37,632 bases of DNA. Origin: a virus. Position 1 is the first letter of the stretch; each line of letters begins with the position of its first letter. Location of the stretch: IMG/VR virus record IMGVR_UViG_3300008267_000141, positions 1 to 37,632 of that record. One strand, written 5' to 3'. Below the pieces are notes generated by a model. That model was not told where the DNA came from. It searched no databases and worked only from the letters and a program-made list of their open reading frames with translations. Shown in pieces: positions 2,171 through 10,909 of the stretch. The translations under genes and the position numbers were made by a program.

Positions 2171-2457
2171 TTCTCCCCCATCTCCACACGCAATTCTGCA
2201 ACAGAAAGAGCGCGGAGAGCCTGGTATATCGGAGCGCGGGCTTTCTTGTCCCGCACGGCCTTTGCCAGCTTTTCCTTAAGCGCGTCTCTTTGCCGTGCAA
2301 TCTCTGCAAGGCGACGGGCTTTCGACGTTGCAGCTTGTTCTGCCAGCCATTGAGCGTGGTCAGCGTCTCGCCGGTTCAGATAATCGTGCCATTCCTTTTG
2401 CTGGCGCTCGTAATTGAAGTCGAGGCGGGCGAGGATGCGTTTGATGAAGGCAATCAC
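2167..2457 (-). CDS. Coiled-coil protein of unknown function
   Basis: 96 residues. After a short hydrophobic N-terminus (residues 1-12) the protein is almost wholly charged and helical, with many Arg/Lys/Glu/Ala from about 16 to 75, typical of a coiled coil. No catalytic motif is visible. It starts at ATG 2457 within the stop of the HTH regulator and ends in the GTGA start of dcm, so all three are probably made from one message. I do not recognise the family. Confidence 0.75.
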   Translation of the reverse strand: MIAFIKRILARLDFNYERQQKEWHDYLNRRDADHAQWLAEQAATSKARRLAEIARQRDALKEKLAKAVRDKKARAPIYQALRALSVAELRVEMGEK

Positions 2458-2666
2458 GATGCGTTCTCCGCTTTCCGGTATGCAGTTTTAATGGTCACAA
2501 CCTTATCCACGCCGACGAGGGCGCAGAGAAGCTGAGTAGGGGGCTTGTGGCCTCGCAGAACGTCGCTCAGGACGGTTTGATTGACGCCGTTCCTTGCGCA
2601 CCATTCCTTCTGCCGTTCGTCTCCGACCAGCCGCTTAATAGCCTTGACTACTTGTTCCTGTTTCAT
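2454..2666 (-). CDS. Small HTH transcriptional regulator (Cro-like)
   Basis: 70 residues. Residues 7-45 fit a Cro/CI-type helix-turn-helix: Q-K-E-W-C-A-R-N-G-V-N then T-V-L-S-D-V-L-R-G as the recognition helix, followed by P-P and a short hydrophobic helix. Start ATG 2666 has GGGAGA seven bases upstream. It is the first gene of the leftward block and faces a rightward promoter across a 118-base gap with repeated operator-like sites. This is the usual position of a phage early regulator, so it probably controls one or both divergent blocks. There is no oligomerisation domain and no integrase in the window, so a lysogeny role is uncertain. Confidence 0.8.
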   Translation of the reverse strand: MKQEQVVKAIKRLVGDERQKEWCARNGVNQTVLSDVLRGHKPPTQLLCALVGVDKVVTIKTAYRKAENAS

Positions 2667-2693
2667 CCGTTTCTCCCTGAATGTGCGGCAAAG

Positions 2694-2728
2694 CTAGGCG
2701 AGATAAATCGCGCTGTCTAGCGAAATAA
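2694..2728. promoter_or_regulatory. Operator-like repeats in the divergent control region
   Basis: Two near-identical direct repeats, CTAGGCGAGATAA at 2694-2706 and CTAGCGAAATAA at 2717-2728, differ by one base and one deletion. Between and across them lie dyads: GCGA-N6-TCGC (2698-2711) and a perfect CGCT-gtct-AGCG (2711-2722). They sit just upstream of the rightward -35 box and between the two divergent first genes. This fits binding sites for the HTH protein at 2454-2666, which is inference. Confidence 0.55.
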
Positions 2729-2732
2729 TAGC

Positions 2733-2761
2733 TTGACGGTTTGCCGGGTGCCGTGTTTTAT
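2733..2761 (+). promoter_or_regulatory. Rightward early promoter
   Basis: TTGACG at 2733-2738, 17 bases, then TTTTAT at 2756-2761 (5/6 and 4/6 matches to sigma-70 consensus). It lies 24 bases before the first rightward gene, whose Shine-Dalgarno is AGGGAGAG. The operator-like repeats directly upstream suggest regulation. Confidence 0.65.
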
Positions 2762-2784
2762 GGTGGCAACAAGGGAGAGACGTT

Positions 2785-2952
2785 ATGCCGATTGAAGAAA
2801 TGACCAACACCGACCTTCTGGCCGCGCAACGCGAGTTGATGGCCAAGGCCCGCGTGGCCCGCGATGCTGGCGACTTGGATATGGCGCAGCGTTATTTGCG
2901 CGTCATCCGCCCGATGAACAACGAAATGCAACGCCGCATGGAGGCAATGTGA
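2785..2952 (+). CDS. Small helical protein, 55 aa, first gene of rightward early block
   Basis: 55 residues, almost entirely predicted helix with many Arg, Ala and Met; no motif is recognised. ATG 2785 is preceded by an AGGGAGAG ribosome site at good spacing, and the promoter at 2733-2761 lies directly upstream. The stop overlaps the next start (TGATG). Position and signals support a real, strongly expressed early protein; its function is unknown. Confidence 0.7.
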   Translation: MPIEEMTNTDLLAAQRELMAKARVARDAGDLDMAQRYLRVIRPMNNEMQRRMEAM

Positions 2953-3176
2953 TGCGCTACGAAGACACCATCATGCCGGAGACAAGCTGCTGCGATAGCT
3001 GCGGCGTTCGCATGGACGAAGGCGACAACTACGGCACTGGCGACGAGTGGCTGTGCGAGGATTGCCACGACGAACGCGCGGACGATGATTGCGACGACAG
3101 CGACGAGCCGCTGACCCTCTCGCCCCGCACGGACTGGCTCGCCATTGCCGCTGACATTACGGGAGCCGCGAAATGA
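2952..3176 (+). CDS. Small acidic zinc-ribbon protein
   Basis: 74 residues. Two CxxC pairs (C-D-S-C and C-E-D-C, about residues 13-38) separated by an acidic stretch form a probable zinc ribbon; one extra Cys follows at about 47 and the protein is very rich in Asp and Glu. I chose ATG 2952 (TGATG with the upstream stop) rather than GTG 2949. The stop overlaps the next gene by four bases. Small acidic zinc proteins in phage early regions often bind host proteins, but no specific partner is visible. Confidence 0.7.
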   Translation: MRYEDTIMPETSCCDSCGVRMDEGDNYGTGDEWLCEDCHDERADDDCDDSDEPLTLSPRTDWLAIAADITGAAK

Positions 3177-3514
3177 GCAAGCGTTACACATACTCAACGT
3201 GCCTGATGTTTGGCACGGACGGCGAGGCTGACCATTGCGAGATTGACGTGACGGTTTCGTATGAGGTCGCATGGCTCGACGATTGCGGCCAGCGCGGCGA
3301 GATTGAGGACATTCGCGTTGAGGCGATTGATTCCGACACGGCGGCAAAAGCCGATCCCGTGGCAGTCGCGGAGGCATTCGACGTGTTCGAGTGCGGGCGT
3401 TTTGATGACGCCATGTTGATCCATGCCAGCGAAGAATGGGCAGAGGATTATGCCGATGCCCTTGACCGGCGCGATGAGGCCAAAAGAGAACGCGCGTGGA
3501 TGGGAGATTATTGA
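3173..3514 (+). CDS. Hypothetical acidic protein, 113 aa
   Basis: 113 residues, strongly acidic, with alternating beta-like segments in the first half (residues 5-50) and a helical, Asp/Glu/Arg-rich second half (75-113). Four cysteines (about 10, 22, 38 and 74) are too scattered for an obvious zinc site. ATGA overlap with the upstream gene and TGATG with the downstream one. I do not recognise it. Very acidic phage early proteins can mimic DNA, but nothing here shows that. Confidence 0.65.
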   Translation: MSKRYTYSTCLMFGTDGEADHCEIDVTVSYEVAWLDDCGQRGEIEDIRVEAIDSDTAAKADPVAVAEAFDVFECGRFDDAMLIHASEEWAEDYADALDRRDEAKRERAWMGDY

Positions 3515-3705: not shown

Positions 3706-3919
3706 CCGCCCACTTGCCCGTTTTCACAACGGCCAGTTAGAGCTAGACCGTGGTGGCGTTTACGGACCGGCCACGCGCCTCAGTGTCCGTGTGATGCTGC
3801 AATCATTCCAGCACAAACCCGGCCCTGACGCAGCGCGATACGTCCGCGATTGTCATACCGCCCTGCAACAATATGAACAGGCAATGGAGGAAGCCAAATG
3901 CGAAGCAGCGACACACTAA
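3698..3919 (+). CDS. Small hypothetical protein, 73 aa
   Basis: 73 residues with a basic N-terminus containing a possible beta hairpin (residues 5-30) and a C-terminal helix (about 45-70). No family recognised. It begins eight bases before the previous stop and overlaps the start of the ERF gene by 22 bases. Position directly before a recombination gene suggests the same early message, nothing more. Confidence 0.6.
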   Translation: MTDRPLARFHNGQLELDRGGVYGPATRLSVRVMLQSFQHKPGPDAARYVRDCHTALQQYEQAMEEAKCEAATH

Positions 3920-4569
3920 CCAAAATCAGCCCCGCGCTTGTGAGGGCTATCAACGCAATCGAAGGCGTGAAGAAGGGCGCAGATAACCCGTTTTTCAAAT
4001 CCAAGTATGCCAACCTCGAAAGCGTGATTGAAGCCGCTCACGGTGCGTTGGAGGCTAACGGGCTGGCGGTTATGCAAGGCCCAGGTCCGATGGATGGCAA
4101 CTGCATCACGCTCACGACGCGCCTTGTTCACGAAAGCGGCGAGTGGATTGAGACTGACTTCTCGCTGCCCGCTGGCAAGATGGACCCTCAAGCGGCAGGC
4201 TCGGCAATCACCTACGCCCGTCGATACTCGCTCATGGCCATGCTGAATATGCCAGCCGTGGATGATGACGGGGAGGCGTCTATGCCCCGTAGCACTAAGC
4301 CCGGCGAGCCGAAAAACCCGAACGTAAGCGTTCACCCTGAAGGCCCTGACTTTTGGGGCGCTGAAGGCTCCGGAATGTCTGCGGCTCAAGCTAAGAAAGA
4401 TGGCTGGGGCGAGACGCTGGACGGATGGCTTGGCGAGATTGCTGTGTTGCCAACCACGCAGGCATGGCAAGATTGGTGCCGTGAGAACGCTGCTGACGTT
4501 AAGCGGCTCCCGAAAGGCTGGCGCGTTCAAATCCGTGAAGAACTCGAACTGAGAAAGAAGGAACTCTAA
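3898..4569 (+). CDS. erf: ERF-family single-strand annealing protein
   Basis: 223 residues. The N-terminal 125 residues carry the ERF hallmarks: I-S-P-A-L-V near the start, N-P-F-F-K-S-K-Y-A (about 30-38), the H-E-S-G-E-W-I-E strand, and D-P-Q-A-A-G-S-A-I-T-Y-A-R-R-Y-S-L (about 95-111) followed by D-D-D-G-E. ERF proteins anneal complementary single strands and serve phage recombination, circularisation of terminally redundant DNA and replication. The C-terminal 90 residues are variable and Trp-rich. Start ATG 3898 has AGGAAG upstream. The next gene, an SSB-like partner, overlaps by one base. ERF use fits a genome that is circularly permuted. Confidence 0.92.
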   Translation: MRSSDTLTKISPALVRAINAIEGVKKGADNPFFKSKYANLESVIEAAHGALEANGLAVMQGPGPMDGNCITLTTRLVHESGEWIETDFSLPAGKMDPQAAGSAITYARRYSLMAMLNMPAVDDDGEASMPRSTKPGEPKNPNVSVHPEGPDFWGAEGSGMSAAQAKKDGWGETLDGWLGEIAVLPTTQAWQDWCRENAADVKRLPKGWRVQIREELELRKKEL

Positions 4570-5407: not shown

Positions 5408-5435
5408 TTGCCGGACCGGTCCGGTGCTGTATGTT
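5408..5435 (+). promoter_or_regulatory. Promoter with a palindrome in its spacer
   Basis: TTGCCG at 5408-5413, 16 bases, TATGTT at 5430-5435. The spacer and -35 edge contain the perfect 14-base palindrome CCGGACCGGTCCGG (5411-5424), a likely protein-binding site. It lies upstream of the zinc-motif gene at 5461, whose ribosome site is AAGGGAGA. Confidence 0.6.
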
Positions 5436-5460
5436 GGTCTCAACAAAGGGAGACAGACCA

Positions 5461-5751
5461 ATGACCAGCGCGACGCAAACACTTTCAATCCGGGGCTACG
5501 AAGGCGAGTGCTATTGCGACCATTGCGGTCGCGCTCTGCAACACGGCGTCCGCACCGACCTGATGGGCGTTATTGGGGCTGACTGCTTCAACAAGCTTAT
5601 TAAAGCTGACCGCAAGCGGTTCAGCGGCAACGGAAAGCCGGGCGCTTCGCTGGTCCGCACTTTCGCCGCTCTGCGTGAACGCCGTTCGGATGCTGACCTC
5701 TCGCGGATGGGCTACCATGCCCCGACCTCCTTCACTTTTGAGGTGGCGTGA
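5461..5751 (+). CDS. Zinc-binding small protein (CxC-xx-C ... G-A-D-C type)
   Basis: 96 residues. Cys17, Cys19 and Cys22 (C-Y-C-D-H-C-G) with a later G-A-D-C42-F-N-K-L make a four-Cys zinc site. The rest is basic and helical. Proteins with C-x-x-C-G ... G-x-x-C-F are frequent in phage early regions; their function is not known to me. The start at ATG 5461 has AAGGGAGA nine bases upstream and its own promoter (5408-5435). The stop overlaps the next start (TGATG). Confidence 0.75.
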   Translation: MTSATQTLSIRGYEGECYCDHCGRALQHGVRTDLMGVIGADCFNKLIKADRKRFSGNGKPGASLVRTFAALRERRSDADLSRMGYHAPTSFTFEVA

Positions 5752-5906
5752 TGCGCGGTATCTGGTTTGAAGAATACGAGCGGCTCTGGAACGAAACCGA
5801 GGACAGCGAGCCTGACCCGCTCGCTGTCACCGAGGCCGTAACGGAAAGACTGGCGAACGCTGCTGATCGTTATCGTGACGCTCAGAAATACGAGGGCCTT
5901 GAATGA
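5751..5906 (+). CDS. Small acidic protein, 51 aa
   Basis: 51 residues, Glu-rich and helical, with a Trp-rich beginning (I-W-F-E-E-Y-E-R-L-W). No motif recognised. TGATG start coupling with the zinc-binding gene and ATGA overlap with the RHH gene place it inside one translational unit. Function unknown. Confidence 0.6.
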   Translation: MRGIWFEEYERLWNETEDSEPDPLAVTEAVTERLANAADRYRDAQKYEGLE

Positions 5907-6127
5907 CCGCCAAGCCCTATCATCACGCAGTGCAGAAAGCAGCCCGCAGAGGGGTTTTGTCAGCCGGAGGCGCAAAGCGTGTCGAGGTAGTGCTAGACGC
6001 TGGCCAGCTTGCCGATCTGCAAAGCATCAAAGACCGTTACGGCTACACGACGGCAGACGCTATTTCCTACGCCATTAGCGCCGCACTGGTCGCTATAGCG
6101 CGGGACACCCCATTGAGCAGCCAGTAG
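5903..6127 (+). CDS. Ribbon-helix-helix (Arc/CopG-like) DNA-binding protein
   Basis: 74 residues. After a basic arm, residues 25-32 (K-R-V-E-V-V-L-D) form a beta strand with alternating outward residues, followed by two helices (about 33-47 and 50-67), the layout of ribbon-helix-helix repressors. Such proteins dimerise and bind short inverted or direct repeats. It is the last gene of its unit. Candidate targets are the palindrome at 5411-5424 upstream of its own operon and the promoters at 6215 and 6760; this is inference. Confidence 0.65.
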   Translation: MTAKPYHHAVQKAARRGVLSAGGAKRVEVVLDAGQLADLQSIKDRYGYTTADAISYAISAALVAIARDTPLSSQ

Positions 6128-6214
6128 TTAGAGGGACTGGTGGGCGCGGGTTATGGGAAGTCACTGGCCCGCCGCGCCCCGCTCAACAAAATGCGCGGAC
6201 TGCGTAAAAAGTGC

Positions 6215-6242
6215 TTGATCCCTGCGTAATAGGTGCTATGTT
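6215..6242 (+). promoter_or_regulatory. Promoter for the gene at 6293
   Basis: TTGATC at 6215-6220, 16 bases, TATGTT at 6237-6242. The -10 box and spacer length are identical to those of the promoter at 5408-5435. The 165-base gap it lies in (6128-6292) holds no gene that I can support. Confidence 0.6.
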
Positions 6243-6254
6243 CAGTCATCGGCG

Positions 6255-6292
6255 CAGGGCAATCAAGCACTAGCCGGAACGGAACCAAGCAA
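6255..6292 (+). repeat. Leader repeat, copy A
   Basis: This leader directly before ATG 6293 is nearly the same as copy B at 6801-6837. Both share CAATCAAGCA, then CGAACGGAACCAAGCAA or CGGAACGGAACCAAGCAA running straight into ATGACC. One base is inserted and a few differ. The match continues into the first codons. Neither copy has a strong Shine-Dalgarno sequence; GGAACGGAA is the only purine-rich stretch. Confidence 0.75.
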
Positions 6293-6550
6293 ATGACCAC
6301 CAAAATCCACCTTCGCCAAGGCAAAAACGGCACCACGGCCTGCGCTTCGCGCGGCGTTGATGGCCGGGGCAACGTTATCCGCAACAGTCGCCAGACCTAT
6401 CAGTGCATGGCGGCAGAAGTTGTTGGGGTGGCTGATTTTATGGCAACGCCCGCCGCTGACCGTTGCGCTCACTGCTGCGACCGCTTCGTGCCGATGATGA
6501 CCGCCCGCCACATTCGGCTTGGCCTGCCGCCGTTCACGGGGTCGCTGTAA
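6293..6550 (+). CDS. Small Cys-rich protein behind leader repeat A
   Basis: 85 residues. It begins M-T-T-K-I, close to the M-T-A-K-I of the gene at 6838 that has the same leader. Cysteines lie at about 17 and 39 and in a C-A-H-C-C cluster (about 58-62), a possible zinc site. Its own promoter is at 6215-6242. The start was chosen at ATG 6293 at the end of the repeated leader, not at an upstream in-frame codon within the promoter. Stop and next start overlap (TAATG). Function unknown. Confidence 0.65.
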   Translation: MTTKIHLRQGKNGTTACASRGVDGRGNVIRNSRQTYQCMAAEVVGVADFMATPAADRCAHCCDRFVPMMTARHIRLGLPPFTGSL

Positions 6551-6720
6551 TGACGCCCGTTGAATACCGCGCCGCCCTCGCAACCCTCGGCCTGTCGCAA
6601 CTCGCGGCGGGCCGGTGGCTCATGGTCAGCCCCAAGACCGCACAGAACTACGCCAAGCTAGGCCCCAGCGGCCCGGCTGCTGTAGCTATCCGCATGGCAT
6701 TGCAGCACGGCTTGAAATAG
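6550..6720 (+). CDS. Small HTH protein, 56 aa
   Basis: 56 residues. Residues 5-40 fit a helix-turn-helix: a first helix, L-G-L-S-Q-L-A-A-G-R-W-L, then V-S-P-K-T-A-Q-N-Y as recognition helix. This resembles short phage Cro/XRE-type proteins with a conserved Trp. The start at ATG 6550 overlaps the previous stop (TAATG). Likely a DNA-binding regulator; target unknown. Confidence 0.7.
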   Translation: MTPVEYRAALATLGLSQLAAGRWLMVSPKTAQNYAKLGPSGPAAVAIRMALQHGLK

Positions 6721-6759
6721 GGCCAGGAATCTTTTTTCGTCCGTCCTGCATTTTCCCTA

Positions 6760-6788
6760 TTGCGTAACATCTACCCATATGGGATAAC
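6760..6788 (+). promoter_or_regulatory. Promoter for the gene at 6838
   Basis: TTGCGT at 6760-6765, 17 bases, GATAAC at 6783-6788. Matches are moderate. It lies before leader repeat copy B, as the 6215 promoter lies before copy A. Confidence 0.45.
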
Positions 6789-6800
6789 AAATCAACGGGG

Positions 6801-6837
6801 CGCGGCAATCAAGCAGCACCCGAACGGAACCAAGCAA
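6801..6837 (+). repeat. Leader repeat, copy B
   Basis: Second copy of the leader found at 6255-6292; it runs into ATG 6838. See copy A for the comparison. Confidence 0.75.
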
Positions 6838-7065
6838 ATGACCGCCAAGATCGAAGTTCTTGCCTACGACGTTCGCCCTGGCAAAGGCCCGATGTTCTTC
6901 AACGTTCGCAACGTGGACGGCGCTTTCAAGTTCATGCAAACCATCGCCAAGTGGTCGGATGGCCGCGCCGACAGCACCTCGTTTGGCTATGTGTTCAAGC
7001 AGGAGCGCCTCGGCAACTTTCTGGCATACGCTGACAAGTGCGGTGTGGAGGTGGTGGGGGTTTAG
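6838..7065 (+). CDS. Small protein behind leader repeat B, 75 aa
   Basis: 75 residues. It starts M-T-A-K-I, then a beta-rich segment (about 5-25), a helix (28-42) and a final strand ending V-E-V-V-G-V. No motif recognised. Beyond the first residues it is not similar to the other leader-repeat gene, so the repeat covers the leader and start rather than the whole gene. The 113 bases after it (7066-7178) hold a weak TTGACC-N17-CATCAT promoter candidate (7085-7113) and no gene. Confidence 0.65.
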   Translation: MTAKIEVLAYDVRPGKGPMFFNVRNVDGAFKFMQTIAKWSDGRADSTSFGYVFKQERLGNFLAYADKCGVEVVGV

Positions 7066-7178: not shown

Positions 7179-7460
7179 ATGTTGTCCGGCTTTAGACCGT
7201 CATTGCCCGGTGAACGTCGAGGCGGTCGCCAGAAGGGGACGCCTAACAAAAGCACGGCGCTGCTTAAGGACGCCATCCTGCTTGCCGCTCAAAAGGCAGG
7301 CGGTGACACGGATACAGGCCTGGTGGATTACCTGACCGTTCAGGCCAGCGAAAACCCCGGCCCGTTTATGTCGCTGCTTGGCAAAGTGCTGCCGATGCAG
7401 CTTGCCGGTGATCCAGACGCACCAATCTCAATCAGTGTCTCTTGGCTGAAACCAGAGTAA
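7179..7460 (+). CDS. Terminase small subunit-like protein
   Basis: 93 residues. The start region R-G-G-R-Q-K-G-T-P-N-K (about 15-24) is the basic, proline/asparagine motif typical of small phage proteins directly before the large terminase (DUF5681-like). It is followed by a helix and P-G-P-F-M-S-L-L-G-K-V-L-P-M-Q. It overlaps the large subunit by 19 bases. Known role for this position: recognising the packaging start and feeding DNA to the large subunit. At 93 residues it is shorter than most TerS proteins, so part of the usual oligomerisation core may be missing. Confidence 0.75.
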   Translation: MLSGFRPSLPGERRGGRQKGTPNKSTALLKDAILLAAQKAGGDTDTGLVDYLTVQASENPGPFMSLLGKVLPMQLAGDPDAPISISVSWLKPE

Positions 7461-8761
7461 TCCCTTACGCCCCTCGCCGGGTGTTCCTGCCGTTCCATAA
7501 CCGGACGCAACGCTTTGCAATCGGGGTGGCGCACCGTCGCTGCGGTAAGACGGTGGCTTGCATTAACGACATGATCCGCAATGCGGTGGTGTCCGATAAG
7601 CCCCACTATCGAGCGGCCTATCTCGCGCCGTACCTGAAGCAGGCTAAGGACGTGGCATGGGAGTACCTGAAACGATACAGCCAGCCGATCTGGGCCAAGC
7701 CGCCTAACGAAAGCGAGCTATATGTCGAACTAATCGGCGGCAAGCGCATCAAGATTTACGGCGCTGACAACCCGGATGCCCTGCGTGGTGGATACCTGGA
7801 TGACGCCACGCTGGACGAATATGCCGATATGTATCCCGGCATCTTCGGCTCGATCATCCGCCCGATGCTGGCCGACCGCCAAGGCACAGCTACGTTCATC
7901 GGGACGCCAAAGGGACGCAATGCGTTCTTCGACCTGTTTGAGCGAGCCAAGACGGACCCTGATTGGTTCCCGTTCTTCTTGCCAGCCTCGGAAACGCTGA
8001 TCCTGCCACAGAGCGAGCTAATCGCCGCTGCGAGGGAGATGACGCCGGAGCAATACGAGCAAGAGTTTGAATGCTCGTTTGAGGCGGCAATCATTGGTGC
8101 CTACTACGGCAAGGACATGGCTGAGAGCGAGCGGGCTGGACGGATTACAGACGTTCCGTATGACCCTGCGCTGCCGGTCTATACGACGTGGGACTTGGGC
8201 ATCGGTGATTCAACCGCCATCTGGTTTTGGCAGGCTCATGGCGCTGAGATACGGGTTATCGATTTTTATGAGGCCAGCGGAGAGAGCATCGAGCATTACG
8301 CCAAGGTCTTGCAGGCCAAGCCTTACAAGTATGAGGCCGATTGGGTGCCGCATGACGCGAGGGTGCGAGAGCTAGGCACGGGCCGCACCAGGATTGAGAC
8401 GATGATGGGCCTGAAACTCAAGCCTAAGCTGGTTCCAAGCCACAAGGTGCTGGACGGCATCAACGCGGGTCGGGTTCTGTTCCCGCGCATCTGGTTCGAC
8501 CGAGACAAGTGCAAGGCAGGGATTGAGTGCCTGCGCCAGTATCGAGCGGACTACGACGAAAAGGCTAGGGTGTTCCGTGACGGGCCTAAGCACGATTGGA
8601 CCAGCCACGCTGCCGATGCGTTCCGGTATCTGGCAATGGCCTATCGTGAGATTAAGCCGGAGGTCAAAGCAGCGGACAAGCCGATCCGTGGCGTTCAAGA
8701 CATGACGTGGGATGATCTGCTAGCCAGCCAGCCAGTTAGAAGCGCATACGAACGCGCATGA
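7442..8761 (+). CDS. terL: Terminase large subunit
   Basis: 439 residues. ATPase: Walker A variant A-H-R-R-C-G-K-T (30-37), Walker B L-D-E (124-126) after a hydrophobic strand, and motif III F-I-G-T-P-K-G (152-158). Nuclease: D251-L-G-I-G-D-S-T and a C-terminal A-A-D392-A-F-R-Y, fitting the RNase H-like fold with metal-binding Asp residues. The enzyme cuts concatemers and pumps DNA into the prohead through the portal. The start is TTG 7442, inside the small-subunit gene, with no good ribosome site; no ATG occurs before residue 44. Translation probably depends on coupling. Confidence 0.95.
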   Translation: MAETRVIPYAPRRVFLPFHNRTQRFAIGVAHRRCGKTVACINDMIRNAVVSDKPHYRAAYLAPYLKQAKDVAWEYLKRYSQPIWAKPPNESELYVELIGGKRIKIYGADNPDALRGGYLDDATLDEYADMYPGIFGSIIRPMLADRQGTATFIGTPKGRNAFFDLFERAKTDPDWFPFFLPASETLILPQSELIAAAREMTPEQYEQEFECSFEAAIIGAYYGKDMAESERAGRITDVPYDPALPVYTTWDLGIGDSTAIWFWQAHGAEIRVIDFYEASGESIEHYAKVLQAKPYKYEADWVPHDARVRELGTGRTRIETMMGLKLKPKLVPSHKVLDGINAGRVLFPRIWFDRDKCKAGIECLRQYRADYDEKARVFRDGPKHDWTSHAADAFRYLAMAYREIKPEVKAADKPIRGVQDMTWDDLLASQPVRSAYERA

Positions 8762-8821: not shown

Positions 8822-10909
8822 ATGCTTCCCACCGAACCTGAAAATCAAGAGGGTGTGAACCTCGTCACCAAGTGGATTGACGAGATCAACCTCGCTGAGA
8901 AAGAGCTTCAGCCGTGGTGGCGGGCTGGCGATATCATTGTGCGTCGGTTCAAGAACGAGAACCGCAATCAAGCTGGCCGTCCGTCTGTGGATTTCTCGCG
9001 CCGTCGCTTTGCCATCCTCTGGTCCAACGTCCAAACGCTTCAGCCTGCTATCTACGCCAAGCAGCCGGTGCCGCTTGTCTCTCGCCGGTATCGGGATGAA
9101 GACCCCGTAGGCAAGGTGGCGTCCGATGTGTTGGAACGGGCGCTAGGGTTCAGCCTCGATCAGTATGATTTTGACGGGCGCGTTAAGCTTTGCGTTCTGG
9201 ACTACCTCCTGCCGGGCCGTGGCCAAGTGTGGGTGCGCTACATCCCGCATATGCGCCGCATCAATCCTGAGCAGGACATTGAGCTAGGCGAAGGCGAGGA
9301 AGACGCTGACCGTGATGAGGTCGGAGAGGTCGAGACGCCGGAAGCGACAGAGGAAGTCGTTTACGAGGAAGTCCAGTGCGACCACGTTGCATGGAAAGAT
9401 TGGCTGACTAACCCGTCCCGTGAATGGTCTGAGGTGCGGTGGGTTGGACGGCGCGTCTATATGACGAAGGCCGAGCTTACGGAGCGATTCGGAGCCGAGA
9501 AGGCCAAGCTAGTCCCGATCACCAAGACGGTGACGGGTTCGGGCAATGACCAAGCCGAAGACGCACAGCGCCAAGCCAACCAGACGGGCGAGGTCTATGA
9601 GATTTGGGACAAGCCTAGCAAGACGGCCTATTGGATTGCGAAAGGCGTAACGAGCGGCGTTCTGGATCAGCGTGAAGACCCGCTAGGCCTGCAAGGCTTC
9701 TTCCCCTGCCCGCCTCCGCTGAATGCCACGACGGCCAATGACAGCACGATTCCGGTTGCGGATTACATCATGTATCAGGATCAGGCTGAGGAGCTTGACG
9801 ACCTGACGGCCCGCATTGGCAAACTGCAAGAAGCCTTGCGGATGGTGGGTGTCTATGCAGGCGAGGCGAACAAAGAGCTTCAGTTGGTGTTCTCGCCGGG
9901 CAATGAGAACAAGCTCATTCCAATCGACACCTACGACATTTGGAAAGAGAAGGGCGGCGTCAAGGGCCTGATCGACTGGGTGCCAATCGATATGGTGATC
10001 CAGGTCTTGCAGGGGTGTTTCGAGACCCGCGCTCAAATCCTGAACGACATTTACCAAATCACCGGCCTCTCCGACATTATCCGTGGTGAGAGCAACCCGA
10101 ATGAGACGGCGACGGCACAACGGCTTAAAGGCCAATGGGGCAGTCTTCGCGTCCGTGACCGGCAGCGGGACTTGCAACGGTTCTGCCGTGATGCAATCCG
10201 CCTGAAGGCCGAGATTATCGCAGAGCATTTCAGCATTGATACGCTCAAGGCGATGACCAACGTGAAGCTCCTGACTGCGGCTGAGAAGGCCCAGATCGAG
10301 CAGATCATGCCGATGATCGAGCAGGCCAAGGCGCAACAGTTGCCGATCCCGCCCGGTATCGAGCCGCCCCCTGAGATGCTTGAGCTTATGCAAGAGCCGA
10401 CGTGGGAAGACGTTATGGCCTTGCTGAAGAACGATGCGCTGCGCTCGTTCCGCATTGACGTTGAGACGGACTCGACCATTGAGCCGGATGAGAACGCGGC
10501 GAAGATGGCGTTTACGGAGTTCACGGGCGCTGTGGTTGGCCTGCTGACGGCTGCGGCTGGCATTGTCCCGACCGCGCCTTACACGGCTCCGCTCTTTGCG
10601 GAAATCCTCAAGCAAGGCGCTCGGACATTCAACGTCAGCCGGTCCATGGAAGACGTGATTGACAAGGTGTTTGAGACTGCCGGTGAACAGCCGCCTGCCC
10701 AGCCTCCCGGCCCGCCGCCTCCCGATGAGACGGCAATGCAGGTCGAGCAAATGAAGTCGCAGACAGCGCAAATGCAGGCTCAAATTGAGCAGCAACGGAC
10801 GCAAATGGAAGGCCAGCTTGGAGCGGCTGAGCTTCAACTGAAAGGGCAGGAGTTGCAGGTTAAGGCGGCTGCGCTTGCTCGTGACCCAACGCCTCAAGGA
10901 AGTGCATGA
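8822..10909 (+). CDS. Portal protein (P22 gp1-like)
   Basis: 695 residues. The central part includes L-T-G/I-T-G-L-S-D-I-I-R-G-E-S-N-P-N-E-T-A-T-A-type sequence (about 415-435), which is typical of P22-like portals. The N-terminus has the usual W-x-x-A-x-x-x-x-x-R-F region and the C-terminus a long Gln-rich helix (about 610-690), like the P22 barrel. It forms the dodecameric ring at the capsid vertex. I chose ATG 8822, after GAGGGG, rather than TTG 8810. Gene order (terminase, portal, scaffold, capsid) supports this. Confidence 0.92.
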   Translation: MLPTEPENQEGVNLVTKWIDEINLAEKELQPWWRAGDIIVRRFKNENRNQAGRPSVDFSRRRFAILWSNVQTLQPAIYAKQPVPLVSRRYRDEDPVGKVASDVLERALGFSLDQYDFDGRVKLCVLDYLLPGRGQVWVRYIPHMRRINPEQDIELGEGEEDADRDEVGEVETPEATEEVVYEEVQCDHVAWKDWLTNPSREWSEVRWVGRRVYMTKAELTERFGAEKAKLVPITKTVTGSGNDQAEDAQRQANQTGEVYEIWDKPSKTAYWIAKGVTSGVLDQREDPLGLQGFFPCPPPLNATTANDSTIPVADYIMYQDQAEELDDLTARIGKLQEALRMVGVYAGEANKELQLVFSPGNENKLIPIDTYDIWKEKGGVKGLIDWVPIDMVIQVLQGCFETRAQILNDIYQITGLSDIIRGESNPNETATAQRLKGQWGSLRVRDRQRDLQRFCRDAIRLKAEIIAEHFSIDTLKAMTNVKLLTAAEKAQIEQIMPMIEQAKAQQLPIPPGIEPPPEMLELMQEPTWEDVMALLKNDALRSFRIDVETDSTIEPDENAAKMAFTEFTGAVVGLLTAAAGIVPTAPYTAPLFAEILKQGARTFNVSRSMEDVIDKVFETAGEQPPAQPPGPPPPDETAMQVEQMKSQTAQMQAQIEQQRTQMEGQLGAAELQLKGQELQVKAAALARDPTPQGSA

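Follow-up and report, generated by a model that had tools for sequence, protein, structure and literature searches.

Analysis of a complete IMG/VR virus record of 37,632 bases (the window) revealed two near-identical leaders, each directly in front of a small gene. We propose that they form the transcribed portion of a mobile control unit for accessory genes that regulates itself and works like an acr-aca operon, a reading to which sequence comparison leads us to assign a probability of roughly two in three. From the same comparison, leader, promoter motif and a small HTH gene can be shown to form one unit with exchangeable genes. Each unit would run from a promoter and operator through a 27-nt hairpin at the mRNA 5′ end and a weak ribosome site to an exchangeable small gene. 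The HTH protein p6550, whose gene closes the first unit, would bind to the promoter motif of either unit and switch both promoters off after an initial burst, as Aca proteins do, while the hairpin may act as a conserved 5′-UTR device governing 5′-end stability or ribosome access, possibly via a bound factor. New genes would enter by recombination in or beside the leader, as the hybrids and swaps described below suggest, and the small genes would be candidate anti-defence or host-takeover proteins.

Two copies of one leader precede small genes

An earlier note on this DNA had described a duplicated leader before ATG 6293 and ATG 6838, and this duplication is confirmed. Copy A (48 nt) and copy B (46-47 nt, starting at 6791 or 6792) lie immediately 5′ of their start codons and are near-identical over 46-48 nt with a single indel (Table 1). 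An exact 22-mer, GAACGGAACCAAGCAAATGACC, is shared by positions 6277-6298 and 6822-6843, and allowing up to three mismatches still yields two matches in the window, compared with a shuffled expectation of 0.00 (100 shuffles). A covariance model applied to the whole window returned only copies A and B, at 54.8 and 49.3 bits, with the third-best match at 13.5 bits. As the note had also stated, the likeness extends into the first five codons (13 of 15 bases alike), beyond which the genes diverge, and no strong Shine-Dalgarno sequence precedes either gene, both having weak GGAA matches only.

The copies are distinguished by a subtype mark, CGGCGCAGGGCAATCAAGCACTAGCCG in A and CGGGGCGCGGCAATCAAGCAGCACCCG in B. 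Among relatives, A-type leaders usually end in GGAACGGAAACAGACAG and B-type leaders in CTAAGCAG, a wider gap than that between the window copies. Since the two types differ more in relatives than in the window, the near-identical 3′ halves of the window copies look like the outcome of a local exchange between A and B. A search of the viral collection with an exact 20-mer from the leader gave no match because this 20-mer stretch is peculiar to the window.

Table 1 Features of the two units and the evidence for each.
Feature	Position	Strand	Evidence
Operator-like 13-mer GCGTAAAAAGTGC, proposed upstream HTH operator	6202..6214	+	Exact match to GCGTAANANNTGC
Predicted promoter of copy A, TTGATC-17-TATGTT	6215..6243	+	By eye; conserved upstream of relatives' leaders
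Second operator-like 13-mer GCGTAATAGGTGC, between −35 and −10	6224..6236	+	Exact match
Leader copy A (type A)	6245..6292	+	Repeat search, 22-mer match, nucleotide profile, covariance-model match
5′-terminal hairpin of copy A, loop AAUCAA	6250..6276	+	MFE fold, covariation, covariance model (54.8 bits)
p6293, 85-aa accessory protein, variable slot A	6293..6550	+	ORF; no family match
p6550, 56-aa four-helix HTH protein, proposed autoregulator	6550..6720	+	AF2 model, Aca-like fold matches, leader co-occurrence
Predicted promoter of copy B, TTGCGT-17-GATAAC	6760..6788	+	By eye; conserved in relatives
Operator-like 13-mer GCGTAACATCTAC	6762..6774	+	One mismatch to GCGTAANANNTGC
Leader copy B (type B)	6791..6837	+	Same kinds of evidence as copy A
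5′-terminal hairpin of copy B, same topology and loop	6796..6822	+	MFE fold, covariation, covariance-model match
p6838, 75-aa accessory protein, variable slot B	6838..7065	+	ORF; no family match

An HTH gene and a promoter motif accompany the leader

The earlier note had overlooked that an HTH gene lies between the copies, that the promoter motif varies with HTH type, and that the whole resembles acr-aca operons. The start of p6550 overlaps the stop of p6293, and its AF2 model consists of four helices with a pLDDT of 95.6. The exact A leader pattern is present in 53 contigs of the viral collection, and an HTH gene lies within 1500 nt in 51 of these 53 loci; the two exceptions, L218 and L240, are truncated loci whose contigs carry the HTH gene in other loci (L143 and L096). 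Among loci found through the HTH, two (L142 and L147) end early, the contig of the latter showing the leader in L250, and one (L139) has the HTH gene without the leader although 2.9 kb of upstream sequence is present. We scanned terminase relatives (the best 80 of 381) and HTH relatives (58 loci and 62 loci) with an iterated nucleotide profile, whose 237 leader matches reduced to 63 non-redundant leaders from metagenomic phages. In 50 of these 63 leader units the HTH gene comes after the first gene, with an overlap of 1 or 4 nt in 14 cases, and the 13 units without it are second-slot units. Thus, as in acr-aca operons, a small HTH protein is encoded downstream in the same operon.

The folds nearest to p6550 were Aca2 (Z 8.4), Aca1 (7.8) and Aca10 (7.4), with SO3848 and MqsA in the same range (Z 7.4-8.4). 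Foldseek placed Aca1 first, and the fold matches were weak by E-value (0.15-2). This likeness supports but does not prove Aca kinship, as a common small HTH fold can reach Z 7.4-8.4. A profile search of PDB sequences with p6550 returned no Aca protein. A search of 84,980 bacterial genomes for relatives of the HTH protein gave 30 matching stretches, none of which was confirmed; those HTH relatives that carry a name are alphaproteobacterial.

Each copy had been credited with a promoter of its own. Boxes placed by eye and conserved in relatives favor this, whereas a consensus promoter scan reported none before copy A or copy B. The 13-mer GCGTAANANNTGC lies between the presumed −35 and −10 elements or just upstream of them, at offsets that include −43, −29, −28, −23 and −21. 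Across 113 non-contained loci, 52 exact copies fall in the 60 nt preceding leaders (4,051 bp) and none in the remaining 1,014,882 bp, a count that describes localisation rather than independent discovery, the motif having been read off the same promoters. The window holds one further site with one mismatch, at 10331, and several B promoters carry three mismatches. As a palindrome the 13-mer is weak in the window's clade, and clear repeats are found in the KTAQR/KTSHL and Roseomonas-type clades.

The motif varies with the recognition helix of the HTH protein. All 36 distinct promoters associated with the helix KTAQN are within two mismatches of GCGTAANANNTGC, 28 of them exact, compared with none of the six promoters associated with KTAQR (three) or KTSHL (three), which have 3-5 mismatches each and in most cases GCGTCA..TGACG-type repeats; one further row was unclassifiable. 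One KTAQR promoter (L143) contains a perfect GCGTCANTCTGACG, from which the KTSHL promoters differ by one mismatch, and another (L230) contains the palindrome CTTGACGCCCGTCAAG. Because promoter motif and recognition helix change in parallel, the comparison points to the HTH protein as the one that reads the promoter motif. As a point against the proposed unit, the operator also occurs apart from this leader hairpin, at the second promoter of L209. There, at about 2670-2750 and directly after the HTH gene, a promoter with a KTSHL-type motif precedes a leader of another sequence, TTTCAACAAGGAGAGACAGAC, which stands in front of the next gene.

The 5′ hairpin is kept through compensatory changes

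The earlier note had raised the possibility of an RNA element and suggested folding and covariation as checks; covariation supports it. The leaders tested fold as ((((..((.((......)).)).)))) or a close variant. Over 21 rows, 97.6% of cells are paired and four of eight pairs have changed on both sides. The covariation score of 0.338 was reached by none of 500 shuffles (mean 0.127), and slid controls gave at most 0.087, none of their pairs having changed on both sides. As the rows are related to one another, these figures reflect few independent events (A versus B, B versus the L068/L206 forms, and L262). Folding energies of single leaders were unremarkable relative to shuffles (z −0.05 to −2.2), and Rfam gave no match in the window above the gathering score and one at chance level (E 0.79).

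Given its asymmetric inner loop (2 versus 1 nt) and fixed orientation, the hairpin fits better with action as RNA than as a DNA palindrome. The stem starts about 7 nt past the presumed −10 element in copies A and B alike, at the expected transcript start, so that it probably begins near the 5′ end of the predicted mRNA. A longer inverted repeat, AGTGCTTGATCCCTGCG / CGCAGGGCAATCAAGCACT, spans the promoter and leader A at 6210-6271 in one promoter variant only; read-through RNA over this repeat is predicted to fold at −34 kcal/mol (z −3.1), which would bury the leader hairpin.

The hairpin might instead be an RNA operator, with the HTH protein also binding leader RNA to repress translation. Aca2, the closest structural match to p6550, is an HTH protein that reportedly does so, hairpin and HTH gene are nearly always found together, and the loop and stem flanks show sequence conservation. 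Yet the same hairpin is kept in all HTH recognition types while the DNA operators have changed with the recognition helix, which argues that its reader is something other than that helix and makes binding through it unlikely. We consider an RNA operator rather unlikely, and favor an Aca-like unit in which the hairpin is a conserved 5′-UTR device.

Exchangeable genes stand behind the leader

The first genes behind the 63 non-redundant leaders fall into 46 small-protein families (BLASTP E 1e-3, 50% coverage, at which very remote kinship among some families is possible). The search for this leader before other genes in relatives, which the earlier note had proposed, thus found it widely, and the idea of a shared control element or mobile expression cassette is well supported by this diversity and by recombination of the leader. 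Searches with the 46 family representatives gave three weak matches in Pfam, three in PHROGs and none in NCBIfam, none of them informative and none to a known anti-defence protein. In the earlier note's terms, loss of one copy or free drift of the leader in close relatives would count against a shared element. By these terms the outcome is mixed. Only 13 of 50 non-redundant loci showed a second copy, B-type or variant, which is a minimum since many loci end early, and the leader itself shows no free drift. In bacterial genomes the leader pattern had one exact match, in a Nitrospirae MAG, near ribosomal-type genes and lacking the outer stem; it was dropped, as we estimate that several chance matches would be expected for this pattern in 257 Gb.

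The window carries a second cassette at 5408-6127, in which a perfect 14-bp palindrome, CCGGACCGGTCCGG, lies in the likely promoter and a strong-SD leader precedes p5461, a 51-aa frame and p5903, in that order. The model of p5903 has two confident helices after a likely strand and looks like a ribbon-helix-helix protein, likely the regulator of this cassette. Many relatives have ACCGGAAACGGT instead of CCGGACCGGTCCGG and a different regulator N-terminus.

Genes have moved between such control heads. Relatives of p6293 with 89-90% identity stand in five loci (L003-L007) behind a promoter containing ACCGGAAACGGT (a close form in L003) with no hairpin leader, and in four of them (L004-L007) a p5903-like gene follows in place of p6550. 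The MQTFSATDY family is likewise found behind both heads, and the MAGFVGYRAS family behind an A leader in one locus (L012) and a B leader in another (L255). For p6838, no relative was found in viral contigs. Another locus, L053, is a hybrid in which an A-type promoter is joined to a B-type leader. By terminase comparison, the cassette is carried by phages with differing terminases: 8 of 24 leader- or HTH-bearing records matched the window terminase (E 0.001), mostly distantly, a rough count as some records are fragments. Next to the terminase, the small gene at 7179-7460 has matches of 97-99% in several close relatives without the leader cassette, and most leader-bearing relatives with a 94-96% terminase show no match to it, which makes this junction a mosaic one. 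A DNA methyltransferase gene lies at 1370-2170 on the minus strand (phrog_363, E 3e-72).

An Erf-like annealing protein, encoded at 3898-4569, is a plausible agent of this exchange. Together with junctions in or at the leader, such as that of the L053 hybrid, it would also suit a leader that is a mere homology anchor for Erf-type recombination, with no regulatory role. Such a leader accords poorly with base pairing kept through compensatory changes, with promoter motifs matched to HTH type, and with an outer stem that lies 40-45 nt from the ATG in 63 of 63 leaders, and we regard it as improbable. We give slightly less credence still to a toxin-antitoxin operon, in which the small gene would encode the toxin and the HTH gene an antitoxin and autorepressor. 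The antitoxins HigA2 and MqsA are among the nearest folds, and 8 of 19 members match the Pfam Xre-like-HTH antitoxin domain with weak E-values, but near-identical HTH proteins stand beside 46 partner families without detectable similarity, unlike a cognate antitoxin, and slot-B units have no HTH gene of their own; the sequences thus offer no sign of the cognate, co-evolving toxin gene of type II systems. That the leader is a site for packaging (cos/pac) or replication, duplicated ahead of the terminase genes (7179-8761), just upstream of which the copies lie, is very improbable given its fixed position relative to start codons, its tie to the HTH gene and promoter motif, and its counterpart on a Roseomonas plasmid.

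A similar architecture occurs in Roseomonas-type loci

The order operator repeat, hairpin of the same topology, small gene and HTH gene recurs on this plasmid (NZ_CP024587) and in three viral contigs. These loci have one or two TAGGYG-N5-CGCCTA repeats before the hairpin and distant HTH proteins (19-24 identities over 51-55 aligned residues). A hold-out covariance model built from the window clade only (R2) recovered the Roseomonas-type leaders where they were predicted in all four loci, with E-values of 0.065, 0.092, 0.34 and 0.85 among 38 matches in total, some equally good by chance. On 15 loci without the HTH leader it gave no convincing match (best E 0.49). A second model (R1) finds the Roseomonas-type leaders at E ~1e-4 or better but was trained on them, and a clade-1 nhmmer profile gave E 2.2-2.4 in two of the four loci and no match in the other two. 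The score link between the two groups of hairpins is thus marginal, and their proposed homology is based on where they lie, on their topology and on the partial match TCATCGGC..GGGCAAT, without a significant score.

At 2174-3189 of the plasmid locus, the operator repeat and hairpin lead to ATG 2243, the start of a 39-aa frame that is absent from the annotation and lies in another reading frame than the annotated gene start at 2319; annotated small genes and the HTH gene lie downstream. Bradyrhizobium phage ppBeUSDA76-2 combines the palindrome GCCCTATAGGGC with a strong 5′ hairpin of another form, and a small open frame and an HTH gene are present as well.

Discussion

Tentatively, these units may belong to a widespread system of phages and plasmids, whose hosts are probably Alphaproteobacteria, with orphan anti-defence genes from a common pool standing behind interchangeable heads. 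Each head would combine an Aca-like repressor and its fast co-evolving promoter operator with a slow-evolving 5′-terminal hairpin that recruits a conserved factor, giving control at two levels, and a ribbon-helix-helix version with its own operator would draw on the same pool. If our main reading is right, leader and HTH gene together provide a search handle for at least 46 otherwise unrecognisable small-protein families in uncultured phages, and these families become candidate anti-defence or host-takeover genes. The contrast between a constant hairpin and a co-changing operator and repressor also makes RNA-level control in Aca-type operons directly testable.

Open-access literature searches found no paper describing the same combination of leader, HTH gene and cassette; several known systems share parts of it. 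The PeSLs of T4-type phages are mobile regulatory cassettes in which a T4 early promoter is flanked by a stem-loop and which are linked to gene shuffling. The window cassette resembles them as a unit of promoter plus stem-loop tied to gene shuffling, and we know of no HTH partner in PeSLs.

The start-associated sequences (SAS/ESAS) of cluster K mycobacteriophages likewise repeat just before the starts of different gene families; SAS is a 13-bp GGGATAGGAGCCC located 3-7 bp before the start, and its authors reported little evidence of RNA pairing in ESAS (PMC3203893). The window leader has no GGGATAGGAGCCC at that distance, its sequence is unrelated and, in contrast to ESAS, its pairing covaries.

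In archaeal viruses, anti-defence genes are marked by a single conserved regulatory sequence that lies in front of many small early genes, and these Aca8-type early regulons resemble the present system in placing one regulatory sequence before many unrelated small genes and in having an HTH regulator (PMC11065993). They differ in their archaeal TATA/BRE promoters and in their regulators, and the available part of the account describes no 5′-UTR hairpin (PMC11065993).

The closest parallel that we propose is with acr-aca operons, in which Aca proteins act as repressors that bind to inverted repeats within the core promoter (PMC9410906). As in the operons so described, small diverse genes are followed by a small HTH gene, and a repeat motif, only weakly palindromic in the window's clade and sometimes present twice, lies within the predicted core promoter; the HTH fold is nearest to Aca2, Aca1 and Aca10. 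Unlike acr-aca operons, the window cassette contains no known acr gene and its HTH protein has no clear match to any family tested, while a conserved 5′-UTR hairpin is common to all units and one HTH gene apparently serves two of them.
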